Shown here piece after piece: positions 44,868 to 51,603 of a DNA stretch of 56,356 nt (its first letter is position 1; the number at the start of each line of letters is the position of its first letter). The notes beneath the pieces are model-generated. The model was not told the DNA's origin. It ran no database searches and worked only from the letters and a program-made list of their open reading frames with translations. Both the position numbers and the translations under genes were made by a program. The DNA is from an uncultured Actinomycetes bacterium (GTDB taxonomy: Bacteria > Actinomycetota > Thermoleophilia > Miltoncostaeales > Miltoncostaeaceae). Location of the stretch: positions 1-56,356 of the forward strand of contig CAITWD010000003.1 in NCBI GenBank assembly GCA_903896045.1, read 5' to 3'.

Positions 44868-45826
44868 CAATTCTCATCATGGGTGCAGGGGCAGTCGGGT
44901 CGTACTACGGCGGGTTACTCGCGCGTGATGGACATGATGTCGCACTCGTGACCCGCGGTGCCCACTTCGAGGCGCTCCGACAGACAGGTGTGATCACCAT
45001 TCGCGAGCCCGATGGAACAGTCTGGACGGCACCAGTCAGCGCAAGCGATCACCCCCAACCGGGCGAATTTGATCTTGCAATCGTCACCACCAAGTCCCAT
45101 CACACCATCGAGGCGGCGCATGTACTTCGACCAATCCTTGGACCGCAGACCGTGGTGTGCACATTGCAAAATGGCGTGGAAAATATCGCGCGCCTGACCG
45201 CCGCGCTCCCCGACAACCCCATCCTCGGCGGGCTCGTATTTGTCGGGCTGACCATCGACCAACCCGGAACCGTGACCCACCTCGCCGAAGGGCGTGCAAC
45301 GATTGGCGATCCCACCGGTGCCATGCCCGAGGCGCTCTCACGAGCAGTCGACATTATTGGTCAGTCATGGGAGCTGTCGGTCAGTTCCGATATCGCGCAT
45401 GCCCAATGGACGAAGCTCCTCTGGAATGTCGGTTTCAACACCATCTGCGCGATTACTGGCGCGAGCGCGGGCGACGTCCTTATGACCCATGAGAGCGCCG
45501 CGCTGGTGATGAGGTCAATGCGTGAAGCGGTCGCACTGGCCCATGCGCATGGCATCACCATTCCGGATTCCGCCATCGAAGAGATGGCCGCGTTTCGACC
45601 CGCCCTGCAGCACTTCCTCCCATCGACGGCACAAGATATCGCCGCATCAAAAGAGCCTGAACGCGACACCATCTCGGGCTTTATCGTCCGCGAGGGGCGG
45701 CGGTTGGGGATCCCCACGCCCATCAATGATGTCCTTGATGGGCTTCTGGCGCTCCAATCCGATCGTGCAACTGGTCGCAGCGCCCGCGCGCCCCTGATGA
45801 CAGGGGCCGCGGGCGGGGCAGACTAG
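44861..45826 (+). CDS. panE: 2-dehydropantoate 2-reductase family protein
   Basis: This 321-residue NADPH-dependent reductase of the ketopantoate type has the N-terminal ILIMGAGAVGSYYGGLL nucleotide motif. The catalytic Lys and Asn lie in QWTKLLWNVGFNTICAITG near residue 187. The C-terminal helical domain ends in RRLGIPTPINDVLDGLLAL, as in PanE. It would make pantoate for CoA synthesis, but paralogues with other substrates exist. GTG at 44861 is required for the complete glycine motif. The stop overlaps that of ddl (CTAG). Confidence 0.85.
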   Translation: MASILIMGAGAVGSYYGGLLARDGHDVALVTRGAHFEALRQTGVITIREPDGTVWTAPVSASDHPQPGEFDLAIVTTKSHHTIEAAHVLRPILGPQTVVCTLQNGVENIARLTAALPDNPILGGLVFVGLTIDQPGTVTHLAEGRATIGDPTGAMPEALSRAVDIIGQSWELSVSSDIAHAQWTKLLWNVGFNTICAITGASAGDVLMTHESAALVMRSMREAVALAHAHGITIPDSAIEEMAAFRPALQHFLPSTAQDIAASKEPERDTISGFIVREGRRLGIPTPINDVLDGLLALQSDRATGRSARAPLMTGAAGGAD

Positions 45827-46770
45827 ATCCCGAGCGCCGCTTCCCCTAAGACGCGCTCGATCACGTCATCAAAGCTCAAACCCGCTGCCTGCGCTGCTTT
45901 CGGGAGCAGGCTGGTATCGGTCATCCCGGGGATCGGATTGATCTCAAGTACCCACACCTGATCATCGGCGTCAATGATCATATCGATGCGACCAAATCCA
46001 CGAAAACCCATCACCTGGTAGCACTGGAGCGCAACACGCGACACCTCGGCGGCCAGGGCATCGGAAAGATCCGCAGGCGCCACAAGTTCGGTCATTCCCG
46101 GCGTATACCGCGATTCAAAGTCATAAAAGTCACCGCTAAAGACTGCCTCGACCGCAGGCAATGCCACTGGATCCGCAGTTCCGATGACCGAAACAGCGAT
46201 TTCACGCCCAGGAATGAACTGCTCGAGCATGACGTGGTTGTCATAGCTCAATGCACTCATGATCCCCCTGGGCACATCCTCAGGCGAACGAGCAATCGTG
46301 ATACCGATTGCAGACCCTTGTTTTGCGGGTTTGACGACCAACGGCAGACCCAAGCGCAGTTGCACCTCACCCAGCGCATCTGCGGCACCGAGTTCGCGAA
46401 AGGCATCCTCGCCAAACGCACAAGCCGGCGGCGTGGGGATCCCAGCATCAGTGAAGATCGCCTTCGTGACGACCTTGTCCATCGAACGCACACATGCCAG
46501 CACACCCGAGCCGGTGTACGGAATATTCAAAATTTCCAAGATCTCTTGGACGGTGCCGTCTTCGCCGCCCTTCCCGTGAATCGCCACGAACACGACATCC
46601 GGGCGTTCTGTGCGCAGGGTGCGCACCAACGAGGAATCTGCATCGACGGAGATCACCTGGTGTCCGAGTCGCCGCAGGGCGGCCTCAACATTTGCCGCCG
46701 AGCGCAAACTCACCTCACGCTCAAGTGATTGTCCGCCCTTCAGTACCGCGACCCGCTGCGGACTACTCAT
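45823..46770 (-). CDS. ddl: D-alanine-D-alanine ligase
   Basis: This 315-residue ATP-grasp ligase makes the D-Ala-D-Ala end of peptidoglycan precursors. It begins VAVLKGGQSLEREVSLRSA, has HGKGGEDGTVQEILE near residue 64, KPAKQGSAIGI near 145 and the metal site NPIPGMTDTSLLPKAA near 280. A GAGGTGGG site precedes the ATG. It overlaps the upstream aminotransferase gene by ATGA, implying coupled translation. Confidence 0.95.
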   Translation of the reverse strand: MSSPQRVAVLKGGQSLEREVSLRSAANVEAALRRLGHQVISVDADSSLVRTLRTERPDVVFVAIHGKGGEDGTVQEILEILNIPYTGSGVLACVRSMDKVVTKAIFTDAGIPTPPACAFGEDAFRELGAADALGEVQLRLGLPLVVKPAKQGSAIGITIARSPEDVPRGIMSALSYDNHVMLEQFIPGREIAVSVIGTADPVALPAVEAVFSGDFYDFESRYTPGMTELVAPADLSDALAAEVSRVALQCYQVMGFRGFGRIDMIIDADDQVWVLEINPIPGMTDTSLLPKAAQAAGLSFDDVIERVLGEAALGI

Positions 46771-48056
46771 ACCCCACCTCCGAATGCGCGCTGAAGCGCC
46801 GTCATAGCCTCAATAGCGGCACCGATTCGGTGCACGCCTTCTGTGATTTTCTCTTCCGAAGAACTCGAAAAGTTCAATCGCATGCTGTGCTGCCCCTGCC
46901 CATCGAGAAATGCTGCGCCTCCAGGTACAAAGGCCACCTGATGGCGATCGATTGCGCGGGCGAGAAGTTCGCTGGTTTGCAGATACTCGGGCAGCGTCGC
47001 CCAGACGAACAGCCCGCCCCGCGGATGCGACCACGTCGCCTCCGCCGGAAACTCATTGGAGAGTGCCGCGAGCATCGCGTCTCGACGAGAGGAATAGATG
47101 ATGTTGAGTCGACCAACGTGCTGACGCCAATCGTGTCGACGCAAGTATTCGATGATGAAGCGCTGCCCAAGTGTTGAGCTGCACAAATCAATTGCCTGCT
47201 TACCCAGATTCATCTTGCGCAAAATGAGGGCAGGTGCCGCGACCCAACCAATGCGCACTCCAGGAGAAAGAATCTTTGAAAAGGTCGAGAGATAGACGAC
47301 CCCGCCCGCACCGGCATCAAGTTCATACAGGCTTGGAAGGGCGTCACCCTCAAAGCGAATTGCCCCATAGGGGTTGTCTTCCACAATCAAGATATCGCGC
47401 TCTGCAGCAAGAGCGACCAGCTGGTGCCGGCGCTCAAGCGACATCGTGACACCACCCGGATTATGAAAATTGGGGATCGTATAAATCAGCTTCGGCTGGC
47501 GCCCTTGGCTGTCCAGTCGATCGAGATGTTCCTCAAGTGAATCGATCGACATCCCGTTCGCATCGAGCGGAATGTGAATCACTTGTGCCTGATTGGTCGT
47601 CAGCGTCGGCACCGCACCCGGATAGGTCGGCCCTTCGGCAATGACGATGTCACCCGGATCGATGAACGCGCCGATCGCAAGTGCGATTGCCTGTTGTCCA
47701 CCCGCAGTCACGAGGATCTCATCCGGTTGTGCGATCGCGCCTTCGGAGCGCATGATTTCGCAGATGTATTGACGAAGCTCCAGGAGGCCTTCGGTGGGCC
47801 CGTATTGCAAGGAGGATGCCTTGTACTTCGTCGCGACCGCTTCCCATACCTCGCAAAAGATCTCATCTGGGAAGCAATCGGTGTCGGGCAGACCACCTGC
47901 AAGGGAGATGATTTCCGGCCGTTCGGTCAGCGACATCAAATCGCGCATCGCCGAAGACTTGATCCCGGTCGCGCGAGCGGCGAATCGGTCCTCAAACCGC
48001 GATGGATCGCGTGCTGTGGTGCGATCAGCCGTAGGAGCTCCCTGTCCGTCGTTCAT
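46767..48056 (-). CDS. PLP-dependent aminotransferase, 2-aminoadipate/LysN-like
   Basis: This 429-residue fold-type I enzyme starts with the family pattern SRFEDRFAARATGIKSSAMRDLMSL and contains LAGGLPDTDCFP, TAGGQQAIAL, the IPNFHNPGG segment, the DNPY motif, and the PLP lysine in TFSKILSPGVRIGW. The substrate is uncertain: 2-aminoadipate, valine or aromatic amino acids are possible. ATG at 48056 has GAGGG six bases upstream; the frame is open to 48119. It is the first gene of a pair with ddl. Confidence 0.9.
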   Translation of the reverse strand: MNDGQGAPTADRTTARDPSRFEDRFAARATGIKSSAMRDLMSLTERPEIISLAGGLPDTDCFPDEIFCEVWEAVATKYKASSLQYGPTEGLLELRQYICEIMRSEGAIAQPDEILVTAGGQQAIALAIGAFIDPGDIVIAEGPTYPGAVPTLTTNQAQVIHIPLDANGMSIDSLEEHLDRLDSQGRQPKLIYTIPNFHNPGGVTMSLERRHQLVALAAERDILIVEDNPYGAIRFEGDALPSLYELDAGAGGVVYLSTFSKILSPGVRIGWVAAPALILRKMNLGKQAIDLCSSTLGQRFIIEYLRRHDWRQHVGRLNIIYSSRRDAMLAALSNEFPAEATWSHPRGGLFVWATLPEYLQTSELLARAIDRHQVAFVPGGAAFLDGQGQHSMRLNFSSSSEEKITEGVHRIGAAIEAMTALQRAFGGGV

Positions 48057-48206
48057 CGCATCCCTCATCATGCCGCAAACCGGCCGCATCTGGGGGCACA
48101 AGAGTCGGATCGCCTCCACCCCGACTGCCCAGAATCAACCCTGGTAAGTTTGCTCAGCGATGACATGCTCACACCTTGTTGCACATGATCCCGATCGGTC
48201 GCGCGC

Positions 48207-48611
48207 GTGACTGCTGCCCGACTTCGCACTGTGGCGCTCGGTGAATGGCGCCATATCATCAAATTTTGCATCGTCGGCGGTATGGGATACATCGTCAATC
48301 TGGCGGTGTTTTATGTGCTCGAGCACTGGGGCGGCCTGCACTACTTGGTGGCATCCACCATCTCGTATTTTGGGGCGTGGGTATTTAACTTCGTCCTGAA
48401 TCGCCAATGGACCTTCCAAAAGCACAAAGATGCGATTGCACCACAGGCGGCGAAATACTTCATCGCCAGCGCCCTTGGCTGGTGCGTCAACGAGATCGTT
48501 CTCGTGGCATTCGTGCATGGTGGCGTTGCTCACGTTCTCGCACAGGCGATCGGGATTGCGGCCTCGACGCCGGTGACATTCCTGATCACACGGGGTTGGG
48601 CGTTCCGATAA
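48207..48611 (+). CDS. GtrA-family membrane protein
   Basis: This 134-residue protein has four membrane helices (KFCIVGGMGYIVNLAVFYVL and later segments) and the conserved WVFNFVLNRQWTFQ. GtrA-like proteins flip polyprenyl-phosphate-linked sugars, giving donors to GT-C enzymes outside the cytoplasm. Two membrane glycosyltransferase genes follow immediately, which supports that role. A GTG start is used. Confidence 0.9.
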   Translation: MTAARLRTVALGEWRHIIKFCIVGGMGYIVNLAVFYVLEHWGGLHYLVASTISYFGAWVFNFVLNRQWTFQKHKDAIAPQAAKYFIASALGWCVNEIVLVAFVHGGVAHVLAQAIGIAASTPVTFLITRGWAFR

Positions 48612-48628
48612 CCGCTCGCCGTTGGCGA

Positions 48629-50329
48629 GTGGGACTTCTCGTCATCGGCCTCTGGCTTGCCAGCATGGGCACCGTGCTCGCAATAGGCCTCCCACCGAGG
48701 ACGGGGTTGACGCCTCCGGATGGGTACCTCCACGCCGCAAATCTGCCCCAGCTGTCGCTCACGCACGTCACTGAGATCGCCAACAGCTCACAGGCGGTAC
48801 GCGATTGGCGCTCGGGGCATCCAAAAAGTCATCCTACCCCGGCCTATAACCCCACGACCCATCAGTGGACGGTGAGCTACATCTCCGGCGGGCCCACCAC
48901 TCCCACCACGACCCAGGCCCAGGTCATCATCAATGACCGCACCGCGCAGATCCACGAGACGCGCACAGGGCCCCAGGTCGCATGGATGATGGCCCGTGGC
49001 TACTGGGGGGCATTTGGTCGCCACATCAATGATCCCTGGATCTGGTCGGGGCTCTGCACATTGTTTCTCGTGCCGCTGCTCGACATCCGCAGGATCGTGA
49101 GTTCGCGCACACTCGATTTGTGTGTCCTATTGAGTTTTTCGCTCTCACTGATCTGGTTTAACAACGGCCAGATTTTCACCTCGGTACCACTGGTCTATCC
49201 ACCACTCGTGTATCTCGGATGTCGACTCATCTGGATCGCGCATCGTCGATCACAGGCGCTCGGTGCCGCGCAGGCACCGATCGTCGGTGCGCAGGAGTTA
49301 CCCGCGCCGAGCTTTCGCGGGTGGGCACCCGATTGGCTTATGGCGGCGATTGTGATGTTGGGGCTCGGGCTTCGCTATAGCCTGAATGCATTCGACGCCA
49401 ATGTCATCGATGTGGGATATGCCGGGGTGATTGGCGCTCACAAGATCGTCGCGGGCGCTGCCCTGTACGGCCACTTTCCGAGTGACTGCGCGCAATGCGA
49501 CACCTACGGGCCTGCTGCCTACCTCGCAGATATTCCGTTCGAGATTTTTGCACCATGGAGTGGCCATTGGGATTCGCTCCCGGCAGCGCATGCGGCAGCC
49601 TCGGCGTTCGACATGCTCTGCGTCCTCGGGCTCTTTGTACTTGGTTGGCGCCTTGCTGGGCAGCGCCTCGGTCTGGCGTTTGCGGCAGCCTGGGTGACCT
49701 TCCCATTCACGGCCTATGCGCTCGAGAGCAACTCAAATGATGAGCTTGTGGCCGCATTGTTGATCTGGGGAATGGTGTTCTTTTCACGCCCTGCGGGGCG
49801 CGGGATTCTTTTGGGACTTGCCATCGCCGCCAAATTCGCGCCGGCACTCCTGGTGTTGGCGTGGTGGCGCGCTCCATCCCGCGGGCGCCGAAATCCGTGG
49901 TGGTATGTGAGTGGCCTTGGTATCGCGGCACTCACCACAGGGTGGGTGATCGTGCTGGGAGGGCTCAGTGCGATACGACTGTTCTGGGACCGAACCATCG
50001 CCTACCAAGTTGGGCGGAGTTCTCCCTTTTCGCTCTGGGGCCAATACCCGACGCTTCACCCACTCCAGATACTGATTATGGGCATCGTCGCTGCCGGAGC
50101 CCTCGCTGCCTGGCGTTGGCCACGCAGACGCGATCTGCTGGGTGTTGTCGCACTCTCGGGGGCGCTGATCATCGGATTGCAGCTGACCATGTCGTATTGG
50201 TTCTATCTCTATATCCCATGGTTTTTGCCATTCGTTTTCGTCGCCATCATCCCCCATTGGCCAACACCCACACCCGCGTTGGCGGCGGCGGCGATCGAAG
50301 GCTCCGCGGTTGAGAGCGACACTGGATGA
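48629..50329 (+). CDS. PepSY-like domain fused to a GT-C membrane glycosyltransferase
   Basis: This protein of about 566 residues starts with one membrane helix, then an extracytoplasmic region of about 110 residues. Its part TTHQWTVSYISGG...QAQVIINDRTAQIHETRTG reads like a PepSY-type fold. About ten membrane helices follow. In the middle, FDANVIDVGYAGVIGAHKIVAG plus TYGPAAYLADIPFEIFAPW matches the acidic first loop and membrane pattern of GT39/GT87 enzymes. It probably transfers a polyprenyl-linked sugar to an envelope acceptor. The frame extends upstream into gtrA, but GTG at 48629 suits the spacing; ATG at 48665 is the next choice. Confidence 0.75.
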   Translation: MGLLVIGLWLASMGTVLAIGLPPRTGLTPPDGYLHAANLPQLSLTHVTEIANSSQAVRDWRSGHPKSHPTPAYNPTTHQWTVSYISGGPTTPTTTQAQVIINDRTAQIHETRTGPQVAWMMARGYWGAFGRHINDPWIWSGLCTLFLVPLLDIRRIVSSRTLDLCVLLSFSLSLIWFNNGQIFTSVPLVYPPLVYLGCRLIWIAHRRSQALGAAQAPIVGAQELPAPSFRGWAPDWLMAAIVMLGLGLRYSLNAFDANVIDVGYAGVIGAHKIVAGAALYGHFPSDCAQCDTYGPAAYLADIPFEIFAPWSGHWDSLPAAHAAASAFDMLCVLGLFVLGWRLAGQRLGLAFAAAWVTFPFTAYALESNSNDELVAALLIWGMVFFSRPAGRGILLGLAIAAKFAPALLVLAWWRAPSRGRRNPWWYVSGLGIAALTTGWVIVLGGLSAIRLFWDRTIAYQVGRSSPFSLWGQYPTLHPLQILIMGIVAAGALAAWRWPRRRDLLGVVALSGALIIGLQLTMSYWFYLYIPWFLPFVFVAIIPHWPTPTPALAAAAIEGSAVESDTG

Positions 50330-51603
50330 GGACATTCTTGGCAACCGCGTGGGCGACATCTGCCCGCCTTCCCGTCCTGTGCATTGCCCTTGCCACATTT
50401 GTCTGGACGATTCCGTTGCAGTGGATCGATCTGTGGACGCGTCATCAAATCAACGGCGATGTCGCGCTCTATGAGAGCTATGCGGGCCTCATTGCGCTCG
50501 GAGACATCCCCTATCGCGACTTCGCAATCGAATATCCACCTGGTGCCGCGGGGCTCTTTTGGGCAACCTGGTGGATACCGGGCGACTACTTCACTGCATT
50601 CAGCGCGCTCATGTTGGTGTCGCTGTGTCTTTGCATCCTTGGGGCGATCTGTAGCGCTCGGCACCTGGGATTCTCGCCTCGACGCCAAGCGGTTATCGGG
50701 TGTGTGATCGCCTGCACCCCACTCCTGCTCGGCAGCCTCGTACAAGCACGGTTTGATCTTGCCATCGCGGCGATCCTGTCATGGATGTTTTATGCCGCAC
50801 TTACGGAGCGGTGGAAGTGGATGTGGAGCCTTGCCGCCGTAGGAATTCTCATCAAACTCATCCCTCTCGCACTGATTCCGTTGCTCGTGGTGTGGCAGTT
50901 GCGTCGACGAGATCTCCGATCTGCGCTCATCGGGGCGGGATCGGCAATCAGCGTTGCCATACTCGCGGTCGTTCCCTTCATCTTGCTGTCGCCCTCGGGC
51001 ATGTGGTACATGATCAATTACAACGCCCGTCGCCCACCACAGCTCGAAACCGTGATCGCCACGGTCATGTTGGTTGCACATACTGTTGCCAATACTCCGG
51101 TCGAAATTCTCGGTTCGTTCGGAAGCGTGAATGTCGTTGGCACAGGACCAGAACTTGCCGCAAAAGCCCTCTTTGCAGTACTCGTGGTGCTCACTCTGGG
51201 ATGCGCCCTCCAGGCAGCCCGCCTCTTGCGCACGGCGACCGCAACGCATGCCCCTGACATTTTGGTGTGCGCGGGCGCGGCAAGCGTGATCGGCTTCACC
51301 CTCACGGGAAAATCATTGTCACCGCAGTACATGGTGTGGTTACTGCCACTGACATTCTTGATCGCAGGACGACGCGGGATCGTCGCGATTGGCTGTGCCA
51401 TTGCCGCACAGATACTGACCCAGACCTATTTCCCCATTCACTACTGGGGCTTGGTCAATGCACACTCACGTGAGATTACGCTGCTCGCAGCGCGGAATCT
51501 CATACTCATTGTGTTGTTGGTGGTGTGCTGGCCGCGGGCCAACCGCGTCGCCGGGGCGGGTCTGTTGGCACCCCCAGACACGGCACAACCGACCAGCACC
51601 TGA
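50326..51603 (+). CDS. GT87-like polyprenol-phosphate mannosyltransferase-type membrane protein
   Basis: This 425-residue protein has about ten membrane helices. The first loop HQINGDVALYESYAGLIALGDIPYRDFAIEYPPGA carries the catalytic Asp and Y-x-P-G pattern of GT87 (DUF2029, PimE-like) enzymes. It likely attaches mannose or another sugar from a polyprenyl donor to envelope glycolipids. ATGA overlap with the preceding GT-C gene implies a shared complex or pathway with it and GtrA. Confidence 0.8.
   Translation: MRTFLATAWATSARLPVLCIALATFVWTIPLQWIDLWTRHQINGDVALYESYAGLIALGDIPYRDFAIEYPPGAAGLFWATWWIPGDYFTAFSALMLVSLCLCILGAICSARHLGFSPRRQAVIGCVIACTPLLLGSLVQARFDLAIAAILSWMFYAALTERWKWMWSLAAVGILIKLIPLALIPLLVVWQLRRRDLRSALIGAGSAISVAILAVVPFILLSPSGMWYMINYNARRPPQLETVIATVMLVAHTVANTPVEILGSFGSVNVVGTGPELAAKALFAVLVVLTLGCALQAARLLRTATATHAPDILVCAGAASVIGFTLTGKSLSPQYMVWLLPLTFLIAGRRGIVAIGCAIAAQILTQTYFPIHYWGLVNAHSREITLLAARNLILIVLLVVCWPRANRVAGAGLLAPPDTAQPTST

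Follow-up and report, generated by a model that had tools for sequence, protein, structure and literature searches.

The sequence analysed is a 56,356-nucleotide stretch of DNA (the window; contig CAITWD010000003.1) from an uncultured actinobacterium of the class Thermoleophilia, whose genome (G000) measures 1.67 Mb and is 99.85% complete. Positions 48207-51603 carry three genes, all on the forward strand: gtrA, a gene for a fusion protein and a gene for a glycosyltransferase of family GT87. The fusion protein is the main subject here. It joins, in one chain, an N-terminal ectodomain of the PepSY type to a membrane glycosyltransferase of the GT-C class; the GT87 enzyme behind it is called the partner. 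The coordinates of all features are collected in Table 1. The start of the fusion gene is uncertain: the in-frame TTG at 48596, which overlaps the end of gtrA, the GTG at 48629 or the ATG at 48665 may serve, and the stop codon ends at 50329. The layout agrees with an earlier reading of this DNA by a model that saw the sequence alone (the original prediction). It had placed a GtrA gene before the fusion, which the PF04138 match bears out, and had proposed translational coupling of the fusion to the GT87-like enzyme, which the ATGA overlap supports as far as layout can.

Table 1. Features of the gtrA-fusion-GT87 locus (positions in the window; residues are those of the fusion unless the partner is named).
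Feature	Position	Strand	Basis
GtrA / DPMS-type membrane protein, 134 aa	48207..48611	+	PF04138
PepSY-GT-C fusion gene, up to 577 codons	48596..50329	+	single open frame; PF09594 at residues 303-524
Predicted N-terminal membrane anchor helix, residues 5-29	48608..48682	+	predicted helix, low model confidence; hydropathy peak 12-30
PepSY-type ectodomain, residues 51-124 (two short helices, four-stranded antiparallel meander)	48746..48967	+	models; PF03413 in relatives; profile-profile comparison
Junction motif, residues 125-146, consensus GPQVAWxMARGYxGAFGRxxN	48968..49033	+	conservation
Predicted membrane helices between PepSY and GT-C core, residues 147-224	49034..49267	+	model
GT-C (GT87-like) catalytic core, residues 246-563	49331..50284	+	PF09594, Foldseek, VIA-align
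Asp272 codon, candidate catalytic base, first outside loop of the core	49409..49411	+	invariance; alignment to partner
Lys413 codon, candidate donor-phosphate ligand	49832..49834	+	invariance; alignment to partner
ATGA stop-start overlap (fusion TGA, partner ATG)	50326..50329	+	sequence
Partner GT87 enzyme, 425 aa	50326..51603	+	PF09594
Partner Asp45 codon	50458-50460	+	aligned with fusion Asp272
Partner Lys177 codon	50854-50856	+	aligned with fusion Lys413

The enzyme class of the fusion is well supported. The GT87 profile PF09594 matches its C-terminal part with E = 1.3e-7 (32.0 bits, cut-off 25), and the partner with E = 3e-8 (34.1 bits, same cut-off). The AlphaFold2 model of the fusion, computed for this protein alone from a 62-sequence alignment, has a GT-C fold with a mean pLDDT (predicted local distance difference test) of 90.1 and a pTM (predicted template modelling score) of 0.89. 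Foldseek ranks PimE first for this model (E = 7.5e-4). Structural alignment by VIA-align gives Z scores of 20.7 for glycosylphosphatidylinositol (GPI) mannosyltransferase 1, 20.2 for ALG3, 18.5 for ArnT and 17.2 for PimE, and these matches fall mostly on residues about 240-563. In a sequence-profile search of the PDB, GPI mannosyltransferase 1 is the only match for both proteins (E = 3.9e-5 for the fusion, 1.5e-7 for the partner).

Two residues of the fusion, Asp272 and Lys413, are invariant in 62 of 62 aligned homologues; in the partner, Asp45, Tyr49 and Lys177 are invariant in all 37 rows of its alignment. When the two proteins are aligned to each other with hhalign (280 columns, E = 2.4e-14), Asp272 falls on Asp45 and Lys413 on Lys177. 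Judged from these alignments, the fusion and the partner are two distantly related GT-C enzymes. In PimE, according to the available text of PMC12041525, the base is proposed to be Asp58, to which Tyr62 binds; Lys195 is a ligand of the donor phosphate, and alanine mutants of these residues lose activity.

The PepSY assignment of the N-terminal domain is well supported at the level of the family, by sequence comparison. The Pfam profile PF03413 recognizes 15 of 60 aligned domains, the one of the window being among the 60, at E<=1. The best of them (locus L071, E = 3e-6) reaches 27.9 bits against a curated cut-off of 24, while most of the ten domains, out of the 60, that were rescanned for the cut-off fall under it. 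When 149 class genomes were scanned in full at E<=0.01, PF03413 matches turned up in 49 of them. Comparison of the scan positions with those of the fusions places nine matches on the fusion N terminus (in genomes G101, G114, G091, G149, G056, G076, G119, G133 and G060), of which the one in G101 is above the cut-off, with 25.3 bits. A profile of the domain, compared with one built from 12 further PepSY stretches of the same class, gives a probability of 90 and E = 1.6e-6 over 55 columns. The 15 PF03413 hits were obtained with the trimmed domain set; the N-terminal stretches of ten relatives, taken with the anchor region, gave no PepSY at E<=5 and only chance-level rows. The PDB, searched by sequence with the domain profile, held no meaningful match.

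Folded alone, the domain is predicted with a pLDDT of 80.7 and has a YpeB-like arrangement. Its VIA-align Z scores are 7.6 for YpeB (5boi), 7.5 for a Clostridioides difficile lipoprotein, 7.1 for a designed cystatin fold, 7.0 for the vibriolysin propeptide, 6.8 for cystatin-like domains of copper amine oxidases and 6.5 for YpmB (2gu3). Structure prediction of this region had been suggested as a check of the PepSY claim, and the YpeB-like result is in its favor; since such Z values may reflect a common arrangement, the fold backs the sequence evidence and is insufficient alone. The domain could instead be a small cystatin/BLIP-like fold that resembles PepSY and works as an acceptor-binding or packing module, comparable to the carbohydrate-binding modules of Emb and AftD. 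The closeness of the copper amine oxidase domains to YpeB in these scores speaks for this explanation, as does the low conservation of the PepSY segment, the least conserved folded part of the protein. Acceptor-binding modules are, moreover, present in other GT-C enzymes, as the available text of PMC11127046 describes. The sequence evidence, however, is specific for PepSY, from the PF03413 hits in relatives, the best of which exceeds the cut-off, and the nine N-terminal matches of the genome scan to the profile-profile alignment, and a cystatin/BLIP-like module is therefore considered rather improbable. The original prediction, which had described a PepSY-type domain fused to a GT-C membrane protein, is hence upheld by the PF03413 hits in relatives, the profile-profile match, the GT87 match and the conservation of the fusion. 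It had named beforehand two features on which it depended, and both were found: the N-terminal region is of the PepSY type, and the acidic residue of the GT-C core is Asp272.

The AlphaFold2 model predicts, from the N terminus, the anchor helix, the PepSY domain, the junction, the helices of residues 147-224 and the GT-C core. The net charge per sequence is +1.79 in loop 161-170 and +1.42 in loop 222-245, against -1.84 in the PepSY segment and -3.92 in the Asp272 loop. These charges therefore place the PepSY domain and the Asp272 loop outside, and loops 161-170 and 222-245 inside; the N-terminal 11 residues are too gapped in the alignment for this kind of topology analysis. The best-conserved segment of the whole protein is the junction (residues 125-146), with a mean conservation of 0.77, compared with 0.62 for the GT-C core, 0.62 for the 147-224 region and 0.44 for PepSY. 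Conservation above that of all other parts would be surprising in a mere tether, and the PepSY domain is hence probably docked on the enzyme.

A survey of the kind proposed with the original prediction detected homologues of the fusion in 38 of the 42 genomes of the window's family and in 236 of the 299 class genomes; the protein is thus class-wide, and it also occurs in one family outside the class. That family, f23, accounts for 24 of the 48 genomes with homologues in a sample of 296 genomes of the phylum, and the other 24 belong to the class. Among the 63 genomes of the class that have no match, the 20 listed come from families f2 (eight), f4 (seven), f1 (four) and f3 (one). No match was found in the plasmids searched. 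Among the 70 fusion frames that were fetched, 68 have a recognizable N-terminal domain, across ten families; the two exceptions are divergent f10 proteins (loci L110 and L111), which retain Asp272 and Lys413 and may possibly represent a natural loss of the PepSY domain. In a tree of 68 proteins, eight of ten groups (f1, f7, f23, f6, f3, f8, f11 and f10) each lie on one side of a branch, and f5 and f9 do not; such a tree fits mainly vertical descent. A record titled Bifidobacterium breve (CAMAVU010000064.1, locus L004) also carries the fusion. It probably corresponds to contig C64 of G037, a genome of the window's family, and its title is probably wrong.

A gene-calling or assembly artefact could also create an apparent fusion, and the uncertain start codon and the origin of the related records, which are metagenome-assembled genomes, would leave room for one. 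This explanation is rejected, its probability being close to nil: the window encodes the fusion in a single open frame, and 68 of the 70 loci fetched, some of them on single-contig genomes, have domain and core in one frame.

The surroundings of the fusion were compared in 61 loci of the class. Adjacency was defined as GtrA directly upstream, on the same strand, with less than 600 bp between profile matches, and the neighborhood calls are based on conservation; the fusion of L042 was recovered by profile search. The second locus of G194 (L112, at a contig end), L140 (a 2 kb stretch) and short duplicate loci were left out of the synteny counts. GtrA is adjacent in 49/61 loci: f1 21/21, f6 4/4, f7 8/12, f9 4/4, f5 2/7, f12 1/1, f3 5/5, f11 2/2, f8 2/3 and f10 0/2. 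The GT87 partner follows the fusion in 37/61 (f1 21/21, f6 4/4, f7 5/12, f9 3/4, f3 4/5; 0/15 in the remaining loci of the class). In f23, GtrA is adjacent in 0/9 loci, and a GT87 gene lies upstream in 7/9. The trio proposed as a module is thus present in the window and is not constant across the class. Just downstream of the fusion, 17 partner-less loci were searched for a multi-membrane frame: in L108 there is a frame with 11 helices, of another type, and elsewhere no clear replacement was seen. Genome G003, which belongs to the same genus as the window, has the GT87 partner twice in tandem after the fusion (L035, 10870-13523).

Other genes recur nearby. A gene pair on the reverse strand of the window (45823-48119), divergent from gtrA, belongs to clusters 4 and 3, which are found near the unit in many loci; from inspection by eye, we take it to encode a D-Ala-D-Ala ligase and a pyridoxal-phosphate aminotransferase. 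The divergent gene directly upstream would be the aminotransferase, and the frame downstream of the unit is presumably class I aldolase-like, both again named by eye. A cluster of type I phosphodiesterase/nucleotide pyrophosphatase proteins occurs in 23/70 loci, often just upstream of gtrA outside f1 (for example L068:11322-12809), and a YmdB-like phosphoesterase is a recurrent neighbor (40/70 loci).

The GtrA protein of the window matches PF04138 with E = 5e-27 (94.9 bits, cut-off 26.1) and is the only such match in its genome, which counts one GtrA, three GT87 and seven GT2 matches. It also matches residues 251-369, the membrane part, of the Pyrococcus dolichol phosphate mannose synthase (DPMS; 5mlz) with E = 4.5e-5. 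The catalytic part of the same enzyme (residues 24-248) is matched by a 251-residue frame on another contig of the genome, C28, with E = 3.8e-28. A second GT2 frame, on contig C2, matches the GtrB protein sll0501 (E = 2.2e-73). The identity of GtrA in the original prediction thus stands, and its description as a flippase has to be widened: the protein resembles the DPMS membrane domain, the same genome has a homologue of the catalytic half on another contig, and flipping need not be its only role. In f23, the GT2 and GtrA matches lie 70-80 bp apart, on one strand and within open frames of equal length, in 9/9 tested genomes (for example G348:C4:711693-712778). This is probably a one-chain synthase of the DPMS type, and the arrangement in the window's genome fits a split one. 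GtrA is found in 28 of 30 chosen genomes and relatives of the C28 protein in 29 of 30. A donor synthase dedicated to the fusion was also considered and is rejected: relatives occur in families without the fusion (f2 and f4).

Taken together, the locus is proposed to encode that half of a multi-component transmembrane glycosylation pathway which works at the outer face; the pathway would have three steps, and we regard the proposal as rather likely for the three jointly. In the first step, as homology suggests, a Dpm1-like enzyme encoded elsewhere would load a hexose, most probably mannose, onto polyprenyl phosphate, and GtrA would be the membrane partner of this enzyme and/or the carrier of the charged lipid to the outer leaflet. 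In the second, the fusion and its partner would glycosylate an acceptor in the envelope, most probably a glycolipid or a lipoglycan, each GT-C enzyme using its outside-facing Asp as base and its conserved Lys for the donor phosphate. In the third, the anchored PepSY domain, predicted on the face of the active site, would probably dock on the core and control acceptor access or activity. The common outer face and the almost invariant junction are the reasons why the domain is probably docked rather than loosely tethered. The sugar, the acceptor and the PepSY role are all put forward here by inference.

Several observations weigh against this three-step pathway or its parts. The window's own protein has no PF03413 match even at E 1 in Pfam, and NCBIfam also returns nothing for PepSY; its whole genome, scanned at E<=1, has zero PF03413 matches, the window's own domain being, by its sequence, too divergent for detection with the Pfam profile. 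With the domain alone, Foldseek finds nothing at E<=0.001, its top rows being XisI-like (E = 0.06), and the Z scores of 7.6 and below are in a range compatible with a mere shared arrangement, cystatin-like folds being nearly equal. In the fusion, the Tyr follows the Asp at +3 (57/62), compared with +4 in PimE and the partner, and the PimE residues are equated with those of the fusion by position only, by way of the alignments with the partner and with GPI mannosyltransferase 1. No partner GT87 lies beside the fusion in 24/61 loci. GtrA relatives occur in f2 and f4 genomes too, and relatives of the C28 protein in all eight f2 genomes (E = 1e-77 or better), with mostly weak matches in f4; no fusion was found in these genomes. 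The GtrB-type synthase on C2 is a second possible donor maker, and the sugar may therefore be glucose or another one instead of mannose.

Two further explanations concern what the pair makes. The fusion and partner could be an ordinary pair of GT87 mannosyltransferases of the PimE/MptA kind, making phosphatidylinositol mannoside or lipomannan, with PepSY as a lineage decoration that has no regulatory role. The nearest folds and sequence profiles are indeed mannosyltransferases, and a DPMS-like donor enzyme is present in the genome; on the other hand, the domain is kept in nearly all frames across ten families and is followed by the best-conserved segment of the protein, which is unexpected for a decoration. 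We give such a pair a minor share of the probability. Alternatively, the GT-C pair may glycosylate secreted proteins or a wall polymer and not a lipid. The fold matches also include the protein O-mannosyltransferases Pmt4 and Pmt1-Pmt2 and oligosaccharyltransferases, with Z scores of 15.4 and below, compared with 20.7-17.2 for GPI mannosyltransferase 1, ALG3, ArnT and PimE; a shared fold, however, reveals no acceptor. The frequent cluster 4 neighbor, read by eye as a D-Ala-D-Ala ligase, would suit a wall polymer. Among the substrates of Gram-positive GtrA-GT-C systems are teichoic acids and further polymers of the wall, according to the available text of PMC8035078. Such a target is judged a little less probable still than a plain mannosyltransferase pair.

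Beyond the three-step pathway, a more specific role can be imagined for the domain. With the junction keeping it rigidly at the catalytic face, PepSY might sense the state of the envelope (the acceptor, a wall intermediate or a protease) and switch a step of glycan assembly that characterizes the Thermoleophilia and one other actinobacterial family. It would then be, within the searches made, the first intramolecular control of a glycosyltransferase by PepSY. This idea is tentative, and we would not expect it to hold in full. The literature on PepSY, glycosyltransferase and GtrA returned only a C. difficile S-layer paper, and no publication joining PepSY with GT87 or DUF2029 was found, a weak absence as most subscription journals lie outside the search. 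A conserved covalent fusion of PepSY with an enzyme makes the effect of the domain on catalysis measurable within one chain. The fusion further suggests that an entire bacterial class, so far little studied, has an envelope glycan made by relatives of the mycobacterial PimE.

PimE (PDB 9dm5 and 9dm7), a mycobacterial mannosyltransferase of family GT87, shares with the fusion the GT-C fold, an invariant outside Asp, a conserved Lys and presumably a polyprenyl-phosphate-sugar donor. Its solved chains, however, have 367-383 residues compared with up to 577 in the fusion, no PepSY is seen there, and the identity in the fold alignments is 14-20%. GPI mannosyltransferase 1 (9wno, 23gf and 23gx), a eukaryotic enzyme that acts on GPI precursors, has the best fold score, and the match is limited to the GT-C core of the fusion (243-560). 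In the Pyrococcus DPMS, the two halves matched by GtrA and the C28 protein form one enzyme, whereas here they are separate, unlinked genes. The multi-component GtrA-GtrB-GT-C systems, of which the available text of PMC8035078 gives the scheme, resemble the locus in combining GtrA with GT-C, and synthases of the GtrB and Dpm1 types are present in the genome. The synthase, the GtrA-type protein and the GT-C enzyme are thus all encoded, but the synthase genes (C28 and C2) are unlinked to the operon, which has in addition two GT-C proteins and a PepSY domain. The word PepSY does not occur in the main text of that review of GtrA-type systems (PMC8035078), as far as it is available. PepSY domains were first known as protease inhibitors; partnerships with wall enzymes were added later, and the available text of PMC10653890 calls the way they act poorly understood; TseB and CopD act with wall synthases (same source). 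YpeB, YpmB/TseB and CopD of the Firmicutes carry their outside PepSY domain or domains on a membrane anchor, as the fusion does; these proteins are separate partners, whereas in the fusion the PepSY domain lies within the glycosyltransferase chain itself.

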